A stretch of 64,000 nucleotides of DNA from Opitutaceae bacterium TAV5 (GTDB taxonomy: Bacteria; Verrucomicrobiota; Verrucomicrobiia; Opitutales; Opitutaceae): the NCBI GenBank assembly GCA_000242935.3, contig CP007053.1, positions 6,309,001 to 6,373,000 of the forward strand, given 5' to 3'. Positions 1,147 through 11,680 of this stretch are shown piece after piece. The stretch's first letter is position 1. Each line of letters begins with the position of its first letter. The translations under genes and the position numbers were made by a program. Under the pieces are notes generated by a model that did not search any database, was not told the DNA's origin, and saw only the letters and a list, made by a program, of their open reading frames with translations.

Positions 1147-1665
1147 ATGCCATCGTCATCACCGGCCGCTGCGACACCGCCTCCACTTTCCGATGCCCCG
1201 CCGCTCGACCTGGAGGTGATTGCGTTCTGGGTGCAGGTGGCGACGCTGCTCGGTTTTCCGCGCTCGGTCGGTGAAATCTACGGTCTTGTTTTCCTTTCCG
1301 AGCAGCCGCTGAGTGCCGACGACATTGTGGAAAAACTCGGCCTGAGCCGCAGCGGAGCCGGCCAGGGATTGAAGGTGTTGCTGGACATCGGTGCCATCCG
1401 GCCGGCGCACCAGCTTGCCAGCCGGAAGGACTATTACCAGCTCCAGACCGATCTGGGCATCCTGGTCAAACTCCTGCTCAACGCCCGCGTTCTGCCGCAA
1501 CTTGAGGAACTCGGCCGCCGCCGCGCCGCCCTCGCCGCCACCGTGGCTGAATCCGGCCCCGACCACCTCGCCCGGCGCTTCGAAAAACTCGACCGCTGGC
1601 GCGAAAAAGCCGAACCCATCCTCGCCCTGGTCAAGGGGCTGGCAGAAACCCGCACCAACTCATGA
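1147..1665 (+). CDS. GbsR/MarR-like winged-helix regulator of the polysaccharide locus
   Basis: This is a predicted DNA-binding regulator of about 172 residues. A winged-helix region is visible (GEIYGLVFLSEQPLSADDI, then the recognition-helix-like LGLSRSGAGQGLKVL), followed by the wing segment ASRKDYYQL and a C-terminal helical dimerisation-like part. This is the GbsR/MarR arrangement. An in-frame ATG at 1096 would add a Cys-rich 17-residue leader; the ATG at 1147 gives a more usual N-terminus, so the start is uncertain. The stop overlaps the ATG of the dTDP-glucose 4,6-dehydratase gene by four bases (ATGA, 1662-1665). That ties the regulator to the exopolysaccharide/O-antigen operon and suggests translational coupling. 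The ligand is unknown. Confidence 0.75.
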   Translation: MPSSSPAAATPPPLSDAPPLDLEVIAFWVQVATLLGFPRSVGEIYGLVFLSEQPLSADDIVEKLGLSRSGAGQGLKVLLDIGAIRPAHQLASRKDYYQLQTDLGILVKLLLNARVLPQLEELGRRRAALAATVAESGPDHLARRFEKLDRWREKAEPILALVKGLAETRTNS

Positions 1666-2684
1666 ATCTGCTCGTCACCGGCGGCTGCGGTTTTATCGGC
1701 AGCAATTTTATTCGGCAGCGCCTCATCGAGGATAAAAAAAGCTCGCCGCTGCGCAAGCTCGTCAACCTCGACGCCCTCACCTACGCCGGAAATCCGGCCA
1801 ATCTCGCGGACCTTGCCGGCGACCCGCGGTACGTTTTCGTACATGGCAACATCGGAGATGAAGCCCTCGTTACCCGACTGCTTGCCGATTACGACATTGA
1901 CGCCATCATCAATTTCGCGGCCGAAAGCCACGTGGATCGCTCCATCAATTCACCGGAGCCGTTCATCCAGACGAATGTTGTCGGAACTCTGCGCCTCCTC
2001 GAGGCCGCCCGTCGCCACCATGCCGCCTTGCCCGCAAACCGTCGCTTTGCCTTCCGGTTTCTGCACATCTCCACTGACGAAGTCTATGGTACCCTTGGGC
2101 CTGGTGATCCTCCCTTTACCGAAAACACACCCTTTGCGCCCAACTCCCCCTACTCTGCCAGCAAGGCCGCCAGTGATCATCTGGTTCGCGCCTGGAACCA
2201 GACATATGGCCTCCCAACCCTGACCGTTAACTGTTCCAACAACTATGGTCCGTACCAACACCCGGAAAAACTCATACCTCTGACAATTCTCAATGCCCTT
2301 CAGGGAAAACCGATCCCTCTCTATGGGGATGGCTTGCAGGTCCGCGATTGGCTCTATGTCGAAGACCACACCGCTGCCATTTGGCTTGTCCTTCAAGGAA
2401 GCTGTCTTGGCGAAACCTATAATGTCGGAGGCATGAACGAACAAACCAATATCGATGTCGTAAAAACCGTTTGCGCACTCCTCGATGCCAGAGTCCCGCG
2501 CGTTGATGGCCAGTCTTATGCCCGGCAAATCACACACGTAGGTGACCGCCCCGGCCATGACCGCCGCTACGCCATCAACTGCGAAAAAATCCGGCGTTCA
2601 TTAAAATGGGGACCAGAGAAAATTTTTGTTACCGGTCTTGAACAGACGGTCAGTTGGTATCTTGGCAGACATATCAGGAAATGA
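1662..2684 (+). CDS. rfbB: dTDP-glucose 4,6-dehydratase
   Basis: This extended short-chain dehydrogenase converts dTDP-glucose to dTDP-4-keto-6-deoxyglucose, a precursor of rhamnose and other deoxysugars of surface glycans. The 340-residue length is normal. Visible are the NAD-binding TGGCGFIGSNF at the N-terminus, NFAAESHVDRSI, the active-site ISTDEVYG (Thr-Asp-Glu) and the catalytic YSASK. The GDGLQVRDWLYVEDH segment is typical of RmlB. It overlaps the preceding regulator by four bases and is followed at once by the Wzm gene. The other rml genes (rmlA, C, D) are not in the window. Codon use shifts within the gene: the first ~400 bases are GC-rich like the flanking chromosome, and the rest becomes AT-richer like the genes downstream. 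Confidence 0.95.
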   Translation: MNLLVTGGCGFIGSNFIRQRLIEDKKSSPLRKLVNLDALTYAGNPANLADLAGDPRYVFVHGNIGDEALVTRLLADYDIDAIINFAAESHVDRSINSPEPFIQTNVVGTLRLLEAARRHHAALPANRRFAFRFLHISTDEVYGTLGPGDPPFTENTPFAPNSPYSASKAASDHLVRAWNQTYGLPTLTVNCSNNYGPYQHPEKLIPLTILNALQGKPIPLYGDGLQVRDWLYVEDHTAAIWLVLQGSCLGETYNVGGMNEQTNIDVVKTVCALLDARVPRVDGQSYARQITHVGDRPGHDRRYAINCEKIRRSLKWGPEKIFVTGLEQTVSWYLGRHIRK

Positions 2685-2689
2685 CTTGT

Positions 2690-2695
2690 GGAGGG
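2690..2695 (+). promoter_or_regulatory. ribosome binding site deciding the Wzm start
   Basis: GGAGGG lies seven bases before the ATG at 2703. It favours that ATG over the in-frame GTG at 2688, which it overlaps. Confidence 0.7.
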
Positions 2696-2702
2696 AATAT
2701 AT

Positions 2703-3500
2703 ATGTCAGAACAGAATAATCATCACTATTGGCACACTATGGAACGATTCAGGGATATTGTCCTGTATCGTACCATAGCCGGCATAAAATCCGAGGCCCG
2801 TCAGCGTTATTTAAGCTATCTATGGTTCCTTCTGGAGCCATTGCTAAGTACTGCCGTTTTTTATATAGCCTATTCTCAAATTACCGGAAAAAGGGGACCC
2901 GATGCCATCCTCAGCATACTTATCGGCATGATCCTCTGGCAATGGTTTGAAAGCGCCGTCATGTCCGGTTCCGGTTCAATCAGGGCAAAATTTCATATCC
3001 TCAACCAATTTAACCTGCCCAAGTATCTCTTCCCGCTCGTCTCCATATTTATCAGCACATGGAAATTCCTGTGCGTTTCAGTGATCATCTGGCTGTTGGC
3101 AGCGGCATTCGGATATCTACCAAATCTTAACTGGATATATCTCCCCCCTCTCTTCCTCATACAACTGTCTTTCATCATCGCCCTCACTTTGCCTATCTCT
3201 ATAGCCGTCACACTCTGGAACGATTTTCAAACCATATTAAGCTCTGTTTTTCGCATGTTATTTTTTATTTCCGGCATATTTTTCGATCCCAATAAAATTC
3301 CCGCCAATTTACAGAAATGGTTTTATACTAACCCCATAGCTTTCTTCATTGAAGCCGGCCGTGCTGTCATATTGCGAAATGAACCTCCACGTTTCGAGCA
3401 CATGACAATGTCACTCATCTCAACCCTTATTTTGTTATTGATTGCCTGGAGGTTGCATCGCAGCTATGATAAGCGCCTCTTGAAGCTTACCAATGACTAA
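2703..3500 (+). CDS. ABC-2 type polysaccharide exporter permease (Wzm-like)
   Basis: This is the membrane subunit of an ABC transporter that moves an undecaprenyl-linked polysaccharide across the inner membrane. The 265 residues show about six hydrophobic segments (for example YLSYLWFLLEPLLSTAVFY, the LPKYLFPLVSIFIST region and SVFRMLFFISGIFF) and a cytoplasmic N-terminus, the layout of the ABC-2 family of O-antigen, capsule and teichoic acid exporters. The following gene encodes the matching ATPase. The ATG at 2703 was chosen because of the ribosome binding site at 2690. It sits between rfbB and the ATPase in a tightly packed operon. The polymer is therefore probably finished in the cytoplasm and exported by the ABC route; no Wzx flippase or Wzy polymerase is seen. 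Confidence 0.88.
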   Translation: MSEQNNHHYWHTMERFRDIVLYRTIAGIKSEARQRYLSYLWFLLEPLLSTAVFYIAYSQITGKRGPDAILSILIGMILWQWFESAVMSGSGSIRAKFHILNQFNLPKYLFPLVSIFISTWKFLCVSVIIWLLAAAFGYLPNLNWIYLPPLFLIQLSFIIALTLPISIAVTLWNDFQTILSSVFRMLFFISGIFFDPNKIPANLQKWFYTNPIAFFIEAGRAVILRNEPPRFEHMTMSLISTLILLLIAWRLHRSYDKRLLKLTND

Positions 3501-3542
3501 GGGGGCTTAAAAACCTGCTCTTTTTTGCAACATGCTCCTAAA

Positions 3543-4265
3543 ATGACAACTGCCAAACCCATCATATCATTACGCAATGCCGGCGTGTGTTATCGCCCGC
3601 CCAAAACCATCTTTTCAAAAGCTAAAAAGGAAATCTGGGCATTACGCAGCCTCAACCTTGACATCTATGAAGGCGAAAAGCTCGGCATCATCGGACGCAA
3701 TGGCAGCGGCAAAAGCACCCTTATGCGCGTCCTCACCAAAATCTATAATCTGGACGAGGGTGAAATCATTTTTCACAAGCCAAACGCCCATGTGGAATTG
3801 CTTTCGCTTGGCGTTGGCTTTGAGGGCATTTTAACCGGACGTGAGAATGCAATCTTGAACGGAATGCTTATGGGCAAGACGCGCTCTTACATGCTGGAAC
3901 ACATAGATGCGATCCATGATTTTTCCGGTCTTGGTGAGTTTTTTGATTATCCGGTTTACACCTACTCAACAGGAATGAATGTTCGCCTAGGCTTCTCAAC
4001 AGCAATGGAGATAGATCCAGACATACTGCTTGTGGATGAGGTTCTTGGTGTTGGTGATCAGGTGTTCATGGAAAAATCGACTAAGGCTTTAAAAACGAAA
4101 TTCACCGGAAACCGAACGGTAATCCTAATCAGTCATCAGCCAGCTAACATAAAAACTCTTTCAACACGGGCCATCTGGCTTGAAAAAGGGATGATCCTTT
4201 CAGAGGGAAGTCCCGCAGAAGTTATCAAGTTTTACGAAGCCAACATACATCAATATACAAAATAG
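3543..4265 (+). CDS. ABC exporter ATPase (Wzt/TagH-like)
   Basis: This is the nucleotide-binding subunit paired with the permease upstream. Walker A is GRNGSGKST (residues 51-59), the signature region is YSTGMNVRLGFS, and Walker B is DILLVDEVLGVGD, followed by the switch SHQP. At 240 residues it has only the ATPase domain. It lacks the C-terminal carbohydrate-binding domain of the Wzt proteins that recognise a modified chain end, so it resembles capsule or teichoic-acid type ATPases. A TTG at 3525 would add six residues; the ATG at 3543 is preferred. It is followed after only three bases by the glycosyltransferase gene. Confidence 0.92.
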   Translation: MTTAKPIISLRNAGVCYRPPKTIFSKAKKEIWALRSLNLDIYEGEKLGIIGRNGSGKSTLMRVLTKIYNLDEGEIIFHKPNAHVELLSLGVGFEGILTGRENAILNGMLMGKTRSYMLEHIDAIHDFSGLGEFFDYPVYTYSTGMNVRLGFSTAMEIDPDILLVDEVLGVGDQVFMEKSTKALKTKFTGNRTVILISHQPANIKTLSTRAIWLEKGMILSEGSPAEVIKFYEANIHQYTK

Positions 4266-4268
4266 CGC

Positions 4269-5483
4269 ATGCCCTTACACTCCATTCATAACATGACTTC
4301 AACATCATTGTTCCCAAAAAATCACATATTTCAGCCACGAGAGGCTGCTGAATCTTCCGTAGCAATTATCATGCGGACAAAGGACAGACCCATCCTTCTT
4401 GCCCGTGCAATTTGTAGTGTTATAAATCAGAATTTTTCCGACTGGCATCTATTCGTGATCAACGACAGCGGTTGCCCTGTCATCTTACAAGAAACTTTGC
4501 GCCCCTATATGGCCACACTCCAAGGGAAACTCACTCTCTTCAACAATGAAACCTCTTTGGGGATGGAAGCGGCCAGCAATGTCGCGGTAAAGGCAATAAT
4601 GGCGGTCAATTCCAGACAAAATGTCACAGGTATTCCGCCTGCCCGGCGCTTCGCCTACTGCGTCGTCCACGACGACGACGATTCATGGCATCCGGATTTC
4701 TTGCAGGAAACAGTTGCTTTTTTGGAAAAAAAAGAAAATCTTTGTTATGCTGGAGTTTGCACAAGAGTTATACTGATTGAAGAGGAAATCCGTGACGAAA
4801 GCGTCGTCTGTATTCGAGAGTACCCTTATCGTGATTTTGTCAGAGATATAAACTTGTGGGAAAGTTTTAAAGTAAATCAGAGTCCGCCTATAGCTTTCTT
4901 GTTTCGCGTGGATTTATTTGATATGGTCGGGCTGTTTAATGAACACCTGCCTGTCCTTGGCGATTGGGACTTTATGCTTCGTGTCCTTTTTCAATCTGAT
5001 GTCGGATTTGTTGACAAACAACTCGCCTACTATCATCATCGAACAAGTAACAGGGGAGGCACGGACGGTATTTATGGTAACTCTATAATTGCTTCAAATT
5101 CACTCCATCAGTCGCAAAGAAAACTTTTTGAGTCAGCTATTTTCAGGAGCGGGATACAAGAAACTGGTGGAAATGGAACATTCAGCATCCTGTTCGCGCT
5201 CGCCCAAATGGAGAAAAGCATAAGATGGGAGACGGATAAATTATCCACAAAACTTGCAAAACTCGAAAAAGAAATCGAACAAAAAAATATTATAAAGAAA
5301 AGTGTCTTTAAAAAAATAACTTCCTTTTTTTATCAAAATTTCATCAAGCATCTTCTGAAATTATTCAACATTCCAACCCCGCCACCAGACAAAAGGAAAA
5401 ATATCCTTAAACGATTGAAATCTTTTTTCTATCAAGTCTTTGCAAAACATATTATCAACACAATAAACGCTTTGAAAAAATGA
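4269..5483 (+). CDS. family 2 glycosyltransferase with C-terminal basic amphipathic tail
   Basis: This GT-A fold transferase probably adds a sugar to the polysaccharide exported by the neighbouring ABC system. The N-terminal part reads VAIIMRTKDRP and SVINQNFSDWHLFVINDSG, typical of GT2. The metal-binding acidic run is DDDD at residues 135-138 (VVHDDDDSWHPDFL), and ED-like LGDWDFMLRV follows. After about residue 300 comes a charged heptad stretch (KLSTKLAKLEKEIEQKN), probably a short coiled coil. Then come two copies of a basic amphipathic segment (ITSFFYQNFIKHLLKL and LKSFFYQVFAKHIINT) that could anchor the enzyme to the membrane. A second possible start is the ATG at 4293. The stop overlaps the next gene's ATG by four bases. 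The gene is strongly AT-rich compared with the flanking chromosome. Confidence 0.85.
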   Translation: MPLHSIHNMTSTSLFPKNHIFQPREAAESSVAIIMRTKDRPILLARAICSVINQNFSDWHLFVINDSGCPVILQETLRPYMATLQGKLTLFNNETSLGMEAASNVAVKAIMAVNSRQNVTGIPPARRFAYCVVHDDDDSWHPDFLQETVAFLEKKENLCYAGVCTRVILIEEEIRDESVVCIREYPYRDFVRDINLWESFKVNQSPPIAFLFRVDLFDMVGLFNEHLPVLGDWDFMLRVLFQSDVGFVDKQLAYYHHRTSNRGGTDGIYGNSIIASNSLHQSQRKLFESAIFRSGIQETGGNGTFSILFALAQMEKSIRWETDKLSTKLAKLEKEIEQKNIIKKSVFKKITSFFYQNFIKHLLKLFNIPTPPPDKRKNILKRLKSFFYQVFAKHIINTINALKK

Positions 5484-8400
5484 GTGACTTATCTTCATTT
5501 GTTGGCCGTATCCCGCAAAACGGAATACTTTCTCTGGATATTTTTGACACGGCGGTAACAAGAAAAGTGGCAATTCCAACGCATATATTTGCGATTATTC
5601 AAGGTGCCATGTTGGCAAGATGTAAAAAACGGAGTGAAAAATTTCTCTGGAGAAATTTTATCGAAATGCGAATTCGGGCGGAGCGAGAATCCCGCGCAAA
5701 TGGCAGTATCGTACTGGGAGAAACCACGCTTGATCGTATCTATAAAAAACTCGGTGAACTTGACAAGAATTTCATTCCCTTTATCGATGAAATCAAGATA
5801 CTGGAAATTGAGACGGAATTGGCAGAAGCAGTAGCGATACCTGAGATCAAAAAAATATATGACGATGCTGTCTCTCACCGAAACGAAATTATATTTACCT
5901 CGGACATGTATCTGCCACTACATGTGATTGAGCAAATATTGCAGAAATGTGGATACTCCGAATATCAAAAAATATTTCTGTCCTCGGAATTTCAAAAGAC
6001 AAAGGGTCACGGTGATTTATGGGAGGAGGTACTGAGAAGCGTTGGGAAGGGTCATCAAATTTTTCACATAGGCGACAATTGGAACTCGGATGTCAGGCGC
6101 GCAAAAGAAAATGGAATTCAGGCATTTCATTTCCCGAACTATTCAACAGGGCATAAAAAATACGCGGGATTTAGCAATGCAATAATCCCGTTATCACGAT
6201 TGATTGCCAAGACTAGAAATGATGTGTCCTCATACAATGTGCCTGTTTTACAAAAGGATACACTCAGTGAAATTGCACGCACTCACCTTCCGTTACTCTT
6301 GGGGAGTTACATAAAATGGATTGACGAACAGGTTCGTTTGCAAGGAGTAAAAACCATCTATTTTTTATCACGGGATGGTTGGATATTGAAACGCACATGG
6401 GAATCTCTTGAAAAACAGGGAGTTGTAACGAATGGATTGCAAATAGTTTATGCAGAGATTTCTCGACGGGCACTCTGGATGCCAACTATAAAACAAATAA
6501 ACGAAGAAGTGCTTAATCGCTTCCTTTTAGGTGGACTGAAGCCAAATCGCCCTGTGCGTGTTTTTTTGGAAAGAATAGGAATTCAAATAACAGAATCTGT
6601 CGAGTTAAAAGTCCGTAAATTCTTCTCCTCTTCAGATGAAATAATTCCAGTTGCATGGCAATGTAAAAAATTATCCGCCTTGATTCATTCATTGGAAACC
6701 GAAATTGTGGATATTGCCGCAAAAGAACGTAAGCTCGCGTTGGGCTACTTGCACCAGATTGGGTTTTTCGATACTTCGGGGAAAAAAGCGATTGTGGATT
6801 TAGGCTGGCATGCGAGTATGCAAGCAATGTTGGTTAAGTTGCTTGAATTTGAATGCGAGTACCCCAAACATAATATTATCGGACTATATACAGGTCTCTT
6901 TCAGGCTGCGCAACGAAACATTTACAGAGGTGGCTATGCACAGGGAATGATCTGCACACCATTTTCCGCACTGGAAGAACAACGCAGGTTGCAAACGACC
7001 GTTCAACTTCTGGAAATACTTCACATGGCCCCCCATGGATCCGTGACCGGTTATAAGATCAATCGAGATAATGACAAAGAACATTTCAGCGGACTTTATG
7101 TAGAAAACGAAAACGAAATGATGCTCTACAGAAACTTTATAGAGCCAATGCATGAAGCCGCCATAAAAACATTGGTTGAAAGACTGATCGATAAGACAAT
7201 CACATGGGATGCGCTGACCCCGCAGACATATTTGGAAACATGGCTTGATCTGAGCATACATCCAGCCGCAAATGAAGCTAAAGCACTTGGGAATTTCCTT
7301 CACTGGGATGGCATTGAGCATAGTGGGGAGGGGACGCCTCTGATACCCAGTGAAATTCCGATGGATTTTGCCAGTGCAAATTCTCTACTAAGTCAAACCG
7401 GATATTGGAGACCTGGACTTTTATGCTCTTGGAGTAGTAAAAGATGCCTGCCCCAGGAGACTTTGTTAAAACTCACAAATTCTTGCGGACATTTAGGGGG
7501 AAACGGGAAGGCCTATTTCAGGCAACTAATCTCTCAGAATGAGTTGGATAAAAAAGAAAAGAAAAAAAACCTGCATTCAAGTGCCTACAATATTGAGGAA
7601 ATAAAGGAAAGCATAACCCTGAAATATCTATATCTTGTCCCTCCCTACTCACCTCGCAGTTTCGATATTGCCGGCTATTGTTGGTCCATCTTCAAATGGG
7701 TTCACAACACCAATGCCGCGAGCGATTCTATCATTATTGCACCAGAATCTTATCGTAAATATTTTGAAAACCCAATTAAAAAGGCTCGAGGAATGATATG
7801 GGGATTAAGCAAGAATGAACAGGAGGGAATGGGATATAATATAAATGAAGACGACTTGGCCAATGGAGTCCATATCATTTTCCACAGAATCTCCTCACCC
7901 GCGGAAAAAGAAATAGAGGAGAACCCTCATCTTCGCTTCGTCAACTATGTTCTTAGCGAAAACTTTGCCGGACTCAATTACGCTAATATTTTGACAGAAC
8001 TCAGAGATGCTTTTGGTAAATTCACGATAATCACCTGGCTGAATTCAGTTTCTCTTAAGCAAACGGCGAAAGAACTTGGTCTGCCAATAATATTCAACGA
8101 GATCGGTCCCCTAAGGAAACCATTTTATCGACAAACTGCATTTTTTGATTTTTCCGGTGTAAATGGGAACACCTCTGCTAGAGCACAATGGGAGAGTCAA
8201 GACAGGACAGAAGATGGAAGGAAAAGGTTCATTCAATGGTGCGATAAAAATAATATAAACAAAAGGAAAATACAGACCTTACTGGCACCAACGATAAATC
8301 CGAATGATTTTACCACTAAAATCGACACGGAGTTAGGTGTCGCACTACAGGTTGAAGATGATTCGAACACTTTATTGTATTCGAATAAATGGACATCGCT

Positions 8401-8896
8401 GTCTTTGCTTGCGAGTGTTCAGGATAGAAGAGACAGTATGCGTGTGCGCCTGCATCCTGGCGGACTGGCATTATATCGTGGAAATATTGATTTATCCAAA
8501 ACTTCACTCCATTTCTGCGCCCGGTGCAAAAAAATCATAACCATAAATTCCAGCGTTGGAATTGAGGCCGTTTTTTGGGGAAAGCCTGTCAGGTTTTTTG
8601 GAGAGAATCCCATAACATTTTTATTCGATGTTCCTGATGAGGAAAAACCATATGCATGGATATATTTCTTCCTTGGTTATCTTATTCCATGGGAAATGCT
8701 CTTCGATAGAAACTATTATGATTGGCGGATTAACAAGAATCCGGGTTTGCCGGAAATTGCAGAGGCACATCTCAATTATTATAAGAGCCTGCCACGAACA
8801 AGAAAATCAAACCCGATAACATTTCAGGCGAACGACAGTCTATATAAAGAGAGGATCGGGCATCCGATGACAGACTTCCTTCCCCACCAATCCTGA
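5480..8896 (+). CDS. HAD-like / COG5610-type / GT-B-like fusion protein for surface polysaccharide
   Basis: This is a 1138-residue three-part protein. Residues 1-235 form a HAD-superfamily domain: motif I LDIFDT (D20), motif II FTSDMYLP, Lys in QKTKGHGD, and motif IV IGDNWNSDV. Residues ~265-600 form a second domain with FLSRDGWIL and VDLGWHASMQ, which is repeated in the next gene. This HAD-plus-domain layout resembles COG5610 proteins of capsule and O-antigen loci. Residues ~740-1120 look like a capsule-synthesis (GT99/Kps-like) transferase domain: IIFNEIGPLRKPFYRQ, FDFSGVNGNT, and INSSVGIEAVFWGKPV near the C-terminus. A role in adding or capping a sugar is inferred, and no substrate can be named. 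It overlaps the preceding glycosyltransferase by four bases and is AT-rich. Confidence 0.72.
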   Translation: MSDLSSFVGRIPQNGILSLDIFDTAVTRKVAIPTHIFAIIQGAMLARCKKRSEKFLWRNFIEMRIRAERESRANGSIVLGETTLDRIYKKLGELDKNFIPFIDEIKILEIETELAEAVAIPEIKKIYDDAVSHRNEIIFTSDMYLPLHVIEQILQKCGYSEYQKIFLSSEFQKTKGHGDLWEEVLRSVGKGHQIFHIGDNWNSDVRRAKENGIQAFHFPNYSTGHKKYAGFSNAIIPLSRLIAKTRNDVSSYNVPVLQKDTLSEIARTHLPLLLGSYIKWIDEQVRLQGVKTIYFLSRDGWILKRTWESLEKQGVVTNGLQIVYAEISRRALWMPTIKQINEEVLNRFLLGGLKPNRPVRVFLERIGIQITESVELKVRKFFSSSDEIIPVAWQCKKLSALIHSLETEIVDIAAKERKLALGYLHQIGFFDTSGKKAIVDLGWHASMQAMLVKLLEFECEYPKHNIIGLYTGLFQAAQRNIYRGGYAQGMICTPFSALEEQRRLQTTVQLLEILHMAPHGSVTGYKINRDNDKEHFSGLYVENENEMMLYRNFIEPMHEAAIKTLVERLIDKTITWDALTPQTYLETWLDLSIHPAANEAKALGNFLHWDGIEHSGEGTPLIPSEIPMDFASANSLLSQTGYWRPGLLCSWSSKRCLPQETLLKLTNSCGHLGGNGKAYFRQLISQNELDKKEKKKNLHSSAYNIEEIKESITLKYLYLVPPYSPRSFDIAGYCWSIFKWVHNTNAASDSIIIAPESYRKYFENPIKKARGMIWGLSKNEQEGMGYNINEDDLANGVHIIFHRISSPAEKEIEENPHLRFVNYVLSENFAGLNYANILTELRDAFGKFTIITWLNSVSLKQTAKELGLPIIFNEIGPLRKPFYRQTAFFDFSGVNGNTSARAQWESQDRTEDGRKRFIQWCDKNNINKRKIQTLLAPTINPNDFTTKIDTELGVALQVEDDSNTLLYSNKWTSLSLLASVQDRRDSMRVRLHPGGLALYRGNIDLSKTSLHFCARCKKIITINSSVGIEAVFWGKPVRFFGENPITFLFDVPDEEKPYAWIYFFLGYLIPWEMLFDRNYYDWRINKNPGLPEIAEAHLNYYKSLPRTRKSNPITFQANDSLYKERIGHPMTDFLPHQS

Positions 8897-8941
8897 TTGC
8901 ACAAACCGCACTGATGACTTAAGTGCCAACAGGAATCACAT

Positions 8942-10330
8942 ATGATACATACAACCAAAGATAATCCAGGAAGGCAAAGTCCATTCATAGGAGAAAGAAA
9001 ATTATTACTGCAAGAGTCACTCCGGAAGCTGCAGAATACCTCGTTTTCACGAGCAGAGTCATTCTGGTTTTTTCTTGGCTACGCTATTTCGGGGCCTTTG
9101 TTACTGGGATTTGGTCAATTTATATACAATCACTTCAAAAGGGGGGAGGCGGATCGTTGGCATTTTCTGGCACGGGATGGCATGCAAATTTTTCGCGCTT
9201 TTCTGGCATGTAAAAGCGAGGGGAACAACTTTGGTCTCAATGATGATCACTGGCTCCACTGTGATCTTGATGACTTGTTGAAAAATATCTCCGATCTTCA
9301 ATCAACGCTGGAATCTCCGCCGGAATCAACAAACCAGTATTCATATTTACTTACATCTCGCAGGGCACTCAACTTTGCAGCAATTACGTGTGTGGGCCAG
9401 AAATCCACTGATTTCTTAATCTCGGATGCCTCCGGAATGTCAGTTAGGGATTTTTTGAAACGGATCAATATCCATGCGGAAAACCACCTGTCGGAAATAA
9501 AGGAATCCGGTTTGGCCTCGGGCAGCCACATTATTACCGCCGCCAACAGACCGCAGCTCAAGAAGCTTATCCATCTGCTGGAAACTCCCATTCTCAATCA
9601 GTCTGAAATAGAACGGAAGGCATATCTTGATTACCTGCATTCAATGGGGCATCCATGGAAGCGAGTGGCGTTAGTGGATATTGGATGGCATGCCTCCTCT
9701 CAATGCTCATTTGAGGCACTTCTGGCCGATTCGATCTCATCCCACGAGCGCTGTCAGTGGAACGGTTATTATTTTGGAACTCTCTCGAAAATCCAAACCA
9801 ATGGTAAGACCAATGGCTTTTTTTTTGAAGAGGAGGCTCCCGTGGAGAATTTCTTACTAATTAAGGAATGCATTGAAATTGTGGAACTCCTTTTTTCCAA
9901 TACCACTCAAACTTTGGAATATATATCCACAAAGAATGAACAGATCGATTTCCATTTTTTACCTGATAACAACAATCTGGACCGAAGGCTGCTGCTGCTT
10001 ATGGAAACAGGCGCCCTTCGATATATCAATGATTTCTTTCACAGCGCCAACTCATTCCCTGCCTTGACCGATTTGTATGCGTGCCTGGCGGAATTACTTC
10101 TTTATCCCTCGGAAGCTTCAGTTGCAGAACTTTCCCGTGTGCGATTCACATGCGGATTCGGGAATTCCCAAGGAAGAAATATTGTTGCACATTCGACACA
10201 TTCCTTCCGCTTCAAAAAGATTGTCTCCGGATATCGTGGTTCCTTTTGGCGAAGAGCTTATATTCAAAGACTGAATTTAATTCAGCGGTTACTTTTGAAG
10301 ACATTCGTTCCGTCATCGCGAAAATACTAA
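8942..10330 (+). CDS. stand-alone COG5610-type domain protein, paralogue of the middle of the preceding gene
   Basis: The 462-residue protein shares landmarks in order with residues ~265-600 of the preceding 1138-residue protein: PLLLG, FLARDG (FLSRDG there), SRRAL, VDIGWHASSQ (VDLGWHASMQ there), and a hydrophobic stretch around IVELLFSN (LLEILHMA there). It has neither the N-terminal HAD motifs nor the C-terminal transferase domain. Its function is unknown; context says surface polysaccharide biosynthesis, perhaps working with the neighbour. It ends the AT-rich part of the locus, only 27 bases from the converging stop of the glycosyltransferase at 10358. The 45-base gap upstream suggests it belongs to the same transcript. 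Confidence 0.65.
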   Translation: MIHTTKDNPGRQSPFIGERKLLLQESLRKLQNTSFSRAESFWFFLGYAISGPLLLGFGQFIYNHFKRGEADRWHFLARDGMQIFRAFLACKSEGNNFGLNDDHWLHCDLDDLLKNISDLQSTLESPPESTNQYSYLLTSRRALNFAAITCVGQKSTDFLISDASGMSVRDFLKRINIHAENHLSEIKESGLASGSHIITAANRPQLKKLIHLLETPILNQSEIERKAYLDYLHSMGHPWKRVALVDIGWHASSQCSFEALLADSISSHERCQWNGYYFGTLSKIQTNGKTNGFFFEEEAPVENFLLIKECIEIVELLFSNTTQTLEYISTKNEQIDFHFLPDNNNLDRRLLLLMETGALRYINDFFHSANSFPALTDLYACLAELLLYPSEASVAELSRVRFTCGFGNSQGRNIVAHSTHSFRFKKIVSGYRGSFWRRAYIQRLNLIQRLLLKTFVPSSRKY

Positions 10331-10357
10331 TGGATAGCTTGAATATAAAACCACTCT

Positions 10358-11680
10358 TCAACATTTTCCTTGGATAAGTTCTTTATAAAATCGGTTGTAA
10401 CCAAATATGAAAGAAGGCCTCCGAGCAGAGAAAAGAGGCGTGGTTCGCGAGGGCGTGGCATTCTGATATGAGTCCAAGCACGCACCCAAAGCGGTCAGGT
10501 AATTTGAACTGGTCCGACCAAATGCGCAGTTTTTCAATGTCTTACGGAGGATCGAAATTCTGGATCCATTTTCCGTGCATGATTTTTCCATGAGCGAGAT
10601 GAGGGTGGAAGCTTTTGGCATGTCGCCTGCTGGATATAAACAAGAAGAGGCGGTTCCCGGCAAATCTTCCTCTTTTTTACCCGAACTAACAAAGTTCGGA
10701 TAAACAGGCAAACACCCTGCCGCCACCGCCTCCAGCATAGCGAGGCTCAGACCTTCGTAATCACTCACATTTACATAATATTTCCAGGTCTTCAGTATCT
10801 GGCCGACGCCAACCGCATCCTTCCAGCCAAGAAACCTCACACGGCCTCGTGCTATCTCGTCGGCAAGCTCTTTTTCCAGCCACGTTCGTTCGGGTCCATC
10901 TCCGAGGATCTCGAAATGCCAGTCTCTCCCGGCCAATTCCCTTTCCAGCAACCTCACCAATTCCGGCAGCCGGTCCACCCGCTTTTGCTCTTTTACCAGT
11001 CGTCCGGAATAACCGATCACACATTCCCTCGCAGAATCCCGATGTTTCTGCTCTTCCCCGCTTTCACTCTCTTGCGCCATCGCCAGAATCGCCGGATTCA
11101 GTGGGCACGGAACACTCGCAACGCACTCCCGTGCATGCCCCTCCGCACAACCTCGCACCCGTGTGGCGAGCGCCGGACTTACACACAAAAAGCCGTCCAG
11201 CCACCGGGAAAAATATTTTATATAATTATCGAATCCCGGAAAACTGCTGTGTAAGTAGCCGATTCGCAGGTGTGCGGTGTCCACGTCCGCCAACATGTCG
11301 GCTCCCCAGCAATTATAATAGAGAGACACATCCGGCCGCTCCTTCGCGAATACCCGTGCCGCCTTTCTCCGCAGACTCCACCACAGGCTCCATGCCCCCC
11401 CCCCTAACTCGATCAATCCCGGCTCACTTGTTCGCTTGGTCCGGTCATTCCTCCTCAGCAGGGCCATGCACACGTCCCCCCCCTCCCCTGCCGCTGCCCG
11501 TCGCATGTGCAGACGCTGCACGTAATCCATCCCCCCCTGGCCAGGCGGATATTTGAAAACATGCAGTACCTTTAGACCATCACTCTCCGTCCGGGCCCGT
11601 GATTCAGCCCCCCGGGAAAGTCGCTCTCTGGACTCGTATCCTCCCTTCGCATCCTTTGCGTCCTTCGCGGTCAAATTCAT
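10358..11680 (-). CDS. GT4-type glycosyltransferase
   Basis: This GT-B transferase probably takes part in building the same surface glycan. The N-terminal domain begins at LKVLHVFKYPPGQGGMDYV with the glycine-rich loop of GT4 enzymes. The C-terminal domain has GYSGRLVKEQKRVDRL and the donor-binding motif EGLSLAMLEAVAAG. The ATG at 11680 overlaps the stop of the upstream GT8-like gene by four bases (ATGA), so this start is preferred, giving 440 residues. It puts a 35-residue leader before the first beta strand. Part of that leader, TAKDAKDAKGG, is encoded by a short dispersed-type repeat at 11642-11675, which is unusual inside a gene. If the leader is not translated, the start would be internal. 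Codon use is GC-rich, unlike the converging AT-rich genes. Confidence 0.85.
   Translation of the reverse strand: MNLTAKDAKDAKGGYESRERLSRGAESRARTESDGLKVLHVFKYPPGQGGMDYVQRLHMRRAAAGEGGDVCMALLRRNDRTKRTSEPGLIELGGGAWSLWWSLRRKAARVFAKERPDVSLYYNCWGADMLADVDTAHLRIGYLHSSFPGFDNYIKYFSRWLDGFLCVSPALATRVRGCAEGHARECVASVPCPLNPAILAMAQESESGEEQKHRDSARECVIGYSGRLVKEQKRVDRLPELVRLLERELAGRDWHFEILGDGPERTWLEKELADEIARGRVRFLGWKDAVGVGQILKTWKYYVNVSDYEGLSLAMLEAVAAGCLPVYPNFVSSGKKEEDLPGTASSCLYPAGDMPKASTLISLMEKSCTENGSRISILRKTLKNCAFGRTSSNYLTALGACLDSYQNATPSRTTPLFSARRPSFIFGYNRFYKELIQGKC
11642..11675 (-). repeat. short AAGGAYGC-type tandem repeat inside the GT4 reading frame
   Basis: Read on the minus strand, the unit GCGAAGGAC / GCAAAGGAT / GCGAAGG recurs about three times with a 9-base period, giving Ala-Lys-Asp triplets. 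Such tracts usually lie between genes; here one sits at the 5' end of a coupled gene. Confidence 0.6.

Follow-up and report, generated by a model that had tools for sequence, protein, structure and literature searches.

What is the domain that two adjacent proteins of a polysaccharide operon in Opitutaceae bacterium TAV5 have in common, and how could two copies of it work if only one is joined to a phosphatase? Ribofuranose (Ribf) enters bacterial glycans by an unusual donor, phosphoribosyl pyrophosphate (PRPP), and in a two-step reaction. The two genes are located on the forward strand of a 64,000-nucleotide stretch of contig CP007053.1 (positions 6,309,001 to 6,373,000), here called the window, within a genome assembly of 7.4 Mb (2 contigs, completeness 100), and encode P0001 (1138 residues) and P0002 (462 residues). 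An initial annotation, made from the sequence alone, had assigned the common domain an unknown function in polysaccharide assembly. Our data suggest that the domain is almost certainly a glycan phosphoribosyltransferase (gPRT), that P0001 additionally carries a phosphoribosyl phosphatase (PRP) of the HAD type and a GT99 domain predicted to transfer 3-deoxy-D-manno-oct-2-ulosonic acid (Kdo), and that the single PRP may serve both gPRTs. The features are collected in Table 1.

A predicted gPRT domain shared by P0001 and P0002

The proposal that P0001 and P0002 share a domain was borne out, both open reading frames (ORFs) and all landmark motifs being present. BLASTP of the whole proteins resulted in an E-value of 7e-14 with 58/195 identical columns, and the Smith-Waterman score of 153 compares to a mean of 37.3 (standard deviation 5.2, maximum 62) for 500 shuffles. 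The motifs SRDG/ARDG, SRRAL and VDxGWHAS follow each other in the order described, but PLLLG, at residue 271 of P0001 and 52 of P0002, comes into register only with a one-residue gap.

We built a profile from P0002 and five relatives, leaving P0001 out (A1), and a profile from 11 gPRTs (A2). Among structures of the PDB, A1 retrieved 7SHG (7.3e-17) and Bcs3 (1e-11), the next row following at 0.12, and A2 retrieved the same two with 2e-33 and 2e-27. A phmmer search with P0001 matched 7SHG, a ribofuranosyltransferase of Thermobacillus composti, with 1.7e-17 over residues 19-568 and Bcs3 with 2.9e-12, while P0002 alone yielded only chance rows and no relative in the PDB, so that the profile was needed. 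Neither Pfam nor NCBIfam matched P0002 or the gPRT segment of P0001.

The AlphaFold model of P0002 (predicted local distance difference test (pLDDT) 83.9, predicted template modelling score (pTM) 0.84) superimposes on 7shg_A with Z 26.1 (326 residues, root-mean-square deviation (rmsd) 3.6) and, with its residues 10-462, on the gPRT part of Bcs3 (8a0c_A; Z 25.5, 395 residues, rmsd 4.1); the best match to a nucleotide-type phosphoribosyltransferase, uracil phosphoribosyltransferase, is weak and comprises the core only (Z 5.7, 146 residues). For P0001 the model of residues 1-720 (pLDDT 78.3, pTM 0.58) matches 7shg_A (Z 28.0, residues 9-606, rmsd 20.1) and Bcs3 (Z 26.8, rmsd 13.0) over PRP and gPRT together, the high rmsd resulting from the two domains being set differently in the model and in the crystal. 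Judged by the known structures the gPRT domain of P0001 extends from near residue 256 to 606 (7SHG) or 657 (Bcs3), close to the range of about 265-600 first proposed. Profile searches and structure prediction, the checks named in the initial annotation, agree in that 7SHG and Bcs3 are found with both profiles and are matched by both models above all else, the same fold being obtained for the two segments. By sequence and fold both proteins belong to the gPRT family, and the domain almost certainly folds like the PRPP-dependent ribofuranosyltransferases 7SHG and Bcs3. The label of an unknown function is thereby replaced, and a role in polysaccharide assembly gains support. The gPRT chemistry as such has been known since 2022-2023.

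The conserved motifs align with PRPP-binding loops

In Bcs3 (PMC10299916) the side chains of S678, R679, S707 and S884 form the β-phosphate pocket, and D680 and E818 hold the ribose with alanine at either position clearly lowering activity. The 5-phosphate is bound by R708, R712, T825 and the loop 821-825, while E874 has been proposed as the base. Counting along the A2-profile alignment, in which 8a0c chain numbers differ by 3 from the published ones, places S678 R679 D680, S707 R708, E818 and E874 at S297 R298 D299, S328 R329, D440 and E512 of P0001 and at A77 R78 D79, S139 R140, D246 (Asp for Glu) and E315 of P0002. By this alignment SRDG, SRRAL and VDxGWHAS are the PRPP-binding loops, and the catalytic residues are intact in both proteins.

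In A2, the other rows of which were found by protein searches with P0002, RDG, the SR of SRRAL, DxGW with its Asp, Gly and Trp, and the Glu equivalent to Bcs3 E874 are kept in 11/11 rows save for one Glu replacing the Asp of RDG. In a further alignment of 23 rows (A4), R78, D79, G80, S139, R140, D246, G248, W249 and E315 (P0002 numbering) are invariant (23/23), the conservation of D246, G248 and W249 being biased because a scan pattern requiring VDxGW followed by only H, Q or L is matched by 18 of the 21 rows that come from other genomes; the other residues were unselected. The active site had initially been placed at RDG and DxGW with strictly kept Asp, Gly, Trp and His residues. Its location stands, as do the Asp, Gly and Trp of DxGW (11/11 in A2). 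The His does not, occurring in 3/11 rows of A2 (both copies of the window and L016) and 11/23 rows of A4, i.e. it is frequent among near relatives and not a residue of the family. The residues of the site differ accordingly from those first listed: they comprise the Arg and Asp of RDG, the Ser and Arg of SRRAL, the Asp of DxGW and, 69-72 residues past this Asp, a Glu that had been missing from the list (E512 in P0001, E315 in P0002). As Bcs3 lacks GW at loop 3, the Trp is not universal either.

PRP and GT99 domains of P0001

The fusion partners of the P0001 copy, previously described as HAD and GT-B-like, can now be named PRP and GT99. The HAD residues D20, D23, T24, S141 and K175 are invariant in 16/16 aligned PRPs and D199 is nearly so, while D20 falls on the Bcs3 nucleophile D386 as judged from the boundaries of the phmmer match (query 18, 8a0c chain 387). 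Sequence and model leave hardly any doubt that the N-terminal HAD is a PRP.

The C-terminal part is very likely a GT99 domain, for which a retaining β-Kdo transfer is predicted. Its QxxxD motif, carrying the nucleophile in WbbB, KpsC and KrkA (PMC12887879), ends with D961, at the position of which 5fa0 and 8cse carry Asp and 8csb and 8csd carry Asn and Cys. The HP motif is kept (H992-P993), and E874 of P0001 lies at the place of the WbbB base Glu158 by count along the alignment. Searching the genome for Capsule_synth (KpsC/KpsS) gave no match at E 0.001, with a positive E. coli control, and a sub-threshold match inside P0001 only; the KpsC/KpsS proteins of a group 2 capsule pathway were thus not found in this genome.

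Two gPRTs and a single PRP

The gPRT profile found P0001 and P0002 only (4/12 first-look candidates scored), protein searches giving the same two, and the PRP profile found P0001 only (E 2e-71, next match E 0.05; 16/16 candidates scored). A PRP domain is present in the chain of P0001 and absent from that of P0002. With two gPRTs and one PRP, three fates are conceivable for the product of an active P0002: removal of its phosphate by P0001, removal by an unrelated phosphatase, or no dephosphorylation. Direct precedent for a PRP acting in trans comes from Bcs3, fragments 2-631 (with CrpP) and 632-1162 (CriT) of which are inactive singly and make polymer when mixed (PMC10299916).

We favour a model in which the gPRT domains would use PRPP to attach Ribf-5-phosphate to a glycan acceptor, the PRP domain of P0001 would then strip the 5-phosphate, and its GT99 domain would add β-Kdo from cytidine monophosphate-Kdo (CMP-Kdo). 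P0002 would act as a second gPRT with its own acceptor, its product being dephosphorylated in trans by the PRP of P0001. A family 2 glycosyltransferase (GT2), P0003, is predicted to contribute one more sugar, of a type that the sequence does not reveal; with it and the Wzm/Wzt exporter encoded in the operon, the product would be a surface heteropolysaccharide containing two Ribf and Kdo. We consider the model as a whole probable; for the dephosphorylation in trans by itself the balance is moderately favourable, and for the presence of Kdo and two Ribf, presumably β-Ribf, in one polymer, to which GT99 and two gPRTs point, the chances are even.

Several observations weigh against this model. The genome has 17 generic HAD-family (PF00702) matches, so that a different phosphatase could serve P0002, and around L057, a standalone gPRT of another genome, the 18.5 kb fetched contain no PRP. 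At the position of Bcs3 Ser678, P0002 has Ala77, Ala being found there in 10/23 rows of A4. The supply of CMP-Kdo is only suggested, since the one PF02348 gene of the genome belongs to a family that includes CMP-Kdo synthetases and also covers enzymes for other sugars. Finally, since the GT99 of WbbB terminates chains, Kdo may cap the polymer instead of being a residue of the repeat.

Some of these points lead to other explanations. The product of P0002 might stay phosphorylated, Ribf-5-phosphate forming a side group or cap that gives charge or stops the chain, which would agree with P0002 having no PRP, with the only PRP-type HAD of the genome being that of P0001, and with L057; we regard this as unlikely, as 11/12 standalone gPRTs lie near a PRP and the separated Bcs3 domains work in trans (PMC10299916). 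A phosphatase from outside the PRP family, perhaps one among the PF00702 matches, might act on the product instead. This appears less likely again because no other HAD scores as PRP, the next match lying at E 0.05, and because the PRP of P0001 is encoded 45 bases upstream, by the preceding gene of the same apparent operon. That P0002 is a dead paralogue serving P0001 as a scaffold or acceptor-binding partner would fit with Ala77 and with an identity of only 19-29% to the remaining A4 rows, but R78, D79, S139, R140, D246 and E315 are all intact, the model is confident, and Ala is common at this position, which makes this explanation improbable. The initial view, a His-containing active site in a domain whose function is unknown, is in line with the lack of a Pfam or NCBIfam model over the domain but can practically be set aside, given that sequence and fold both mark 7SHG and Bcs3 as clear relatives and that the His varies.

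Standalone gPRTs in other genomes

Counting the centre genome in each case, gPRT matches occur in at least 21/387 genomes of the phylum of the window, in at least 21/398 of the phylum of L030 (Thiobacillus) and in 7/149 of the phylum of L051 (Treponema), the first two counts being lower bounds for which the best few candidates per genome were scored. The tree comprises 61 gPRT rows, 47 with a PRP in the same ORF, including 11 that also contain a GT2. The standalone sample covers all profile matches with an open frame to ~540 aa, whatever their neighbours, those of ~590-850 aa being mostly left out; some longer-frame matches were taken in for architecture. Before filtering, 19 rows had no HAD. 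We excluded L016 and L034 (same contig as L015), L041 (same contig as L019), L058 (119 positions only), L019, L037 and L040:-1 (cut by an end) and L040:5911, whose HAD ORF overlaps in another frame and whose GT2 is also broken, so that it looks like the result of frameshifts. With the window, the remaining 11 make up 12 complete PRP-less gPRTs, and a PRP lies within 6.3 kb in 11/12. R[DE]G, SR, D.G[WY] and the Glu are kept in all of them but L021, which was counted although its loop reads ARGG.

In five genomes drawn from the scan of the L030 phylum (L052:7030-10035, L053:7169-10136, L054:9101-12171, L055:7043-10004 and L056:12676-15704) a gPRT of 344-351 aa adjoins or overlaps a gene with a C-terminal PRP, the N-terminal part of which is RgpF in L052 and L056, the two scanned with Pfam. 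As L069 encodes RgpF-PRP-gPRT as a single chain, these pairs look like naturally split versions of such a fusion. L021:14993-16606 is a sixth, doubtful split pair, in which a divergent gPRT adjoins an ORF of its own for a PRP-type HAD; with ARGG where [SA]RDG is expected, this gPRT is probably altered or inactive. In the window, in G275 (Opitutales) and in L030, L038 and L051 the PRP close by is that of a different gPRT. The combination of a standalone gPRT with a single PRP in the genome recurs in distant phyla. L057:8890-10248 encodes a standalone gPRT of 452 aa with intact motifs, its neighbours looking by eye like nucleotide-sugar genes, and is a candidate for a retained Ribf-5-phosphate.

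For E. coli, CrpP/CriT genes and their partner domains are described as forming one chain or being separate (PMC10299916, Extended Data Fig. 1 legend), and in the available text of the literature searched, which did not include Kelly 2022, we found no PRP-less gPRT described. At somewhat less than even chances, we suggest that PRP-less gPRTs represent a recurrent second class of ribofuranosyltransferases, in which either one phosphatase serves two gPRTs with different acceptors or, more boldly, a free gPRT tags chains with a Ribf-5-phosphate whose retention or removal serves a purpose, e.g. to order additions. In the former case, two ribose residues per repeat would need one phosphatase.

Operon and genomic setting

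The genes for the sugar dehydratase, Wzm, Wzt and P0003 follow each other in this order with gaps of 3 to 24 bases, the dehydratase gene overlapping ORF 1096-1665 by 4 bases (Table 1). P0003 and P0001 overlap by 4 bases as well, and 45 bases separate P0001 from P0002, both on the plus strand. Over positions 2001-11000 of the window the G+C content per kb is 0.375-0.510 compared to 0.59-0.70 on either side. This low-G+C stretch coincides with the polysaccharide operon, which fits an acquired surface-polysaccharide cluster, and we consider the island probably acquired.

Table 1. Position, strand and supporting evidence of features in the window.
Feature	Position	Strand	Evidence or remark
Nucleotide-sugar dehydratase/epimerase gene, first sugar gene of the apparent operon	1662..2684	+	Pfam GDP_Man_Dehyd 2e-87, Epimerase 1e-66
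Wzm-type ABC-2 permease	2688..3500	+	ABC2_membrane 4e-10
Wzt-type ATPase, 246 aa	3525..4265	+	ABC_tran 1e-18, residues 40-173
P0003, GT2 glycosyltransferase, subtype often alongside PRP/gPRT	4269..5483	+	Glycos_transf_2 5e-11
P0001, 1138 aa	5480-8896	+	PRP, gPRT and GT99 in one chain (predicted)
P0001 residues 1-225, predicted PRP domain (HAD-type)	5480..6154	+	phmmer 7SHG over 19-568, E 1.7e-17
P0001 residues about 256-657, predicted gPRT domain	6245..7450	+	profile A2; model of residues 1-720
P0001 SRDG (297-300), loop 1, PRPP β-phosphate and ribose; Bcs3 S678 R679 D680	6368..6379	+	A2 alignment, PMC10299916
P0001 SRRAL (328-332), loop 2; S328 R329 at Bcs3 S707 R708	6461..6475	+	A2 alignment, PMC10299916
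P0001 VDLGWHAS (439-446), loop 3, 5-phosphate; D440 at Bcs3 E818	6794..6817	+	A2 alignment, PMC10299916
P0001 E512, at Bcs3 E874, proposed general base	7013..7015	+	invariant in A2, A4 (at P0002 E315) and A5
P0001 residues 719-1105, predicted GT99 retaining β-Kdo transferase domain	7634..8794	+	Pfam Glyco_transf_99 3e-22; phmmer 5FA0/8CSE 1.5e-41
P0001 QxxxD motif of GT99, Q957-D961	8348..8362	+	D961 at WbbB nucleophile position
P0002, predicted standalone gPRT without PRP domain, 462 aa	8942..10330	+	A1 profile, predicted fold
P0002 ARDG (77-80), loop 1	9170..9181	+	alignment
P0002 SRRAL (139-143), loop 2	9356..9370	+	alignment
P0002 VDIGWHAS (245-252), loop 3	9674..9697	+	alignment
P0002 E315, at Bcs3 E874	9884..9886	+	invariant in 23/23 rows of A4

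Wzt proteins exporting terminated chains have an extra C-terminal carbohydrate-binding domain that recognises the terminus. With 246 residues the ATPase of the operon appears too short for such a domain, a slight and not decisive argument for Kdo belonging to the repeat rather than ending the chain.

Close relatives of the P0003-type GT2 (E < 1e-60) share the locus in 17/50 distinct gPRT loci, or in 13/46 when the loci that seeded the model are left out, some of the gPRT loci lying on a single contig. By eye, P0003 ends in a charged stretch resembling a coiled coil and in two basic-amphipathic segments that are alike, KKSVFKKITSFFYQNFIKHL and ILKRLKSFFYQVFAKHI, perhaps a duplicated membrane anchor.

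Origin of the pair and rarity of the domain order

In the 61-row tree the gPRT of P0001 groups with L063:5180-8365 (1061 aa), its nearest neighbour (SH-aLRT 99), and not with P0002, long branches meeting at this point; P0001 and P0002 as one clade, as expected for a local tandem duplication, is not rejected (p-AU 0.113, 26 chosen rows). The N-terminal 398 residues of L063 match no Pfam family at E 0.1 and, by sequence in the PDB (E 1), only a ribosomal protein as a chance row (0.92), and could be an undescribed transferase; a KrkA-type identity, checked by the same Pfam and PDB sequence searches, gained no support.

GT99 occurs in 5/387 genomes of the phylum and is fused to a gPRT only in the window, the other four having been inspected in wider stretches for three (the ORF of G430 runs off the contig end) and in a 3.2-kb locus for the fourth. 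Plasmid sequences yielded 59 records with a partial match to P0001, in none of which 80% of the protein is covered at a single place. The GT99 domains of L077:7858-11055 and L078:4501-7971 lie in proteins of 1065 and 1156 aa, that of L077 being fused to a GT4-type glycosyltransferase and not to a gPRT. The order PRP-gPRT-GT99 was met in no other locus examined and, like the PRP-less gPRT, is a variant of known chemistry.

Significance and comparison with known systems

Beyond the known domain the news is modest, consisting of the PRP-gPRT-GT99 order and of a standalone gPRT in a single-PRP genome. Published screens for Ribf-adding enzymes took the PRP domain as marker (PMC11127046), so that gPRTs without PRP can escape them. 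The Ribf-Ribf-Kdo repeat of E. coli K16 is unexplained by the predicted domains of its cluster (PMC13171606), and a separately encoded second gPRT would be one concrete form of the enzyme missing in such cases. The window further offers a testable candidate polymerase with a true GT99 in place of GT140.

The dual-domain ribofuranosyltransferases of Thermobacillus composti (7SHG) and K. pneumoniae O4/O7 (PMC11127046, PMC11231755) have the PRP-gPRT order, the fold and the PRPP-binding loops in common with P0001, which adds a C-terminal GT99, whereas P0002 has no PRP at all. Bcs3, the CroT-CrpP-CriT capsule polymerase of H. influenzae type b (8a0c/8a0m; PMC10299916), is likewise a single multi-enzyme chain of an ABC-exporter pathway, CrpP corresponding to PRP and CriT to gPRT; in contrast, no ribitol-phosphate transferase or SH3b domain was found here by Pfam, the predicted Kdo transferase and a second gPRT being present instead. 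In WbbB of Raoultella terrigena (5FA0, 8CSB-8CSF) the GT99 shares the QxxxD nucleophile motif, the base Glu and the HP motif with P0001 but is an N-terminal chain terminator, whereas that of P0001 is fused behind PRP-gPRT in an operon with a short ATPase. KrkA of E. coli K13 unites Kdo transferase, gPRT and PRP in one chain, as P0001 is predicted to do, and builds a Ribf-Kdo repeat (PMC12887879); it differs in that its Kdo transferase is an N-terminal GT140 in place of a C-terminal true GT99, and the K13 repeat has one Ribf. The capsules of E. coli K74 and K16 (Ribf-Ribf-Kdo) and of Kingella kingae type c (three Ribf and Kdo; PMC5070880), likened here by their polymer only, are the same kind of product as the one predicted for the window.

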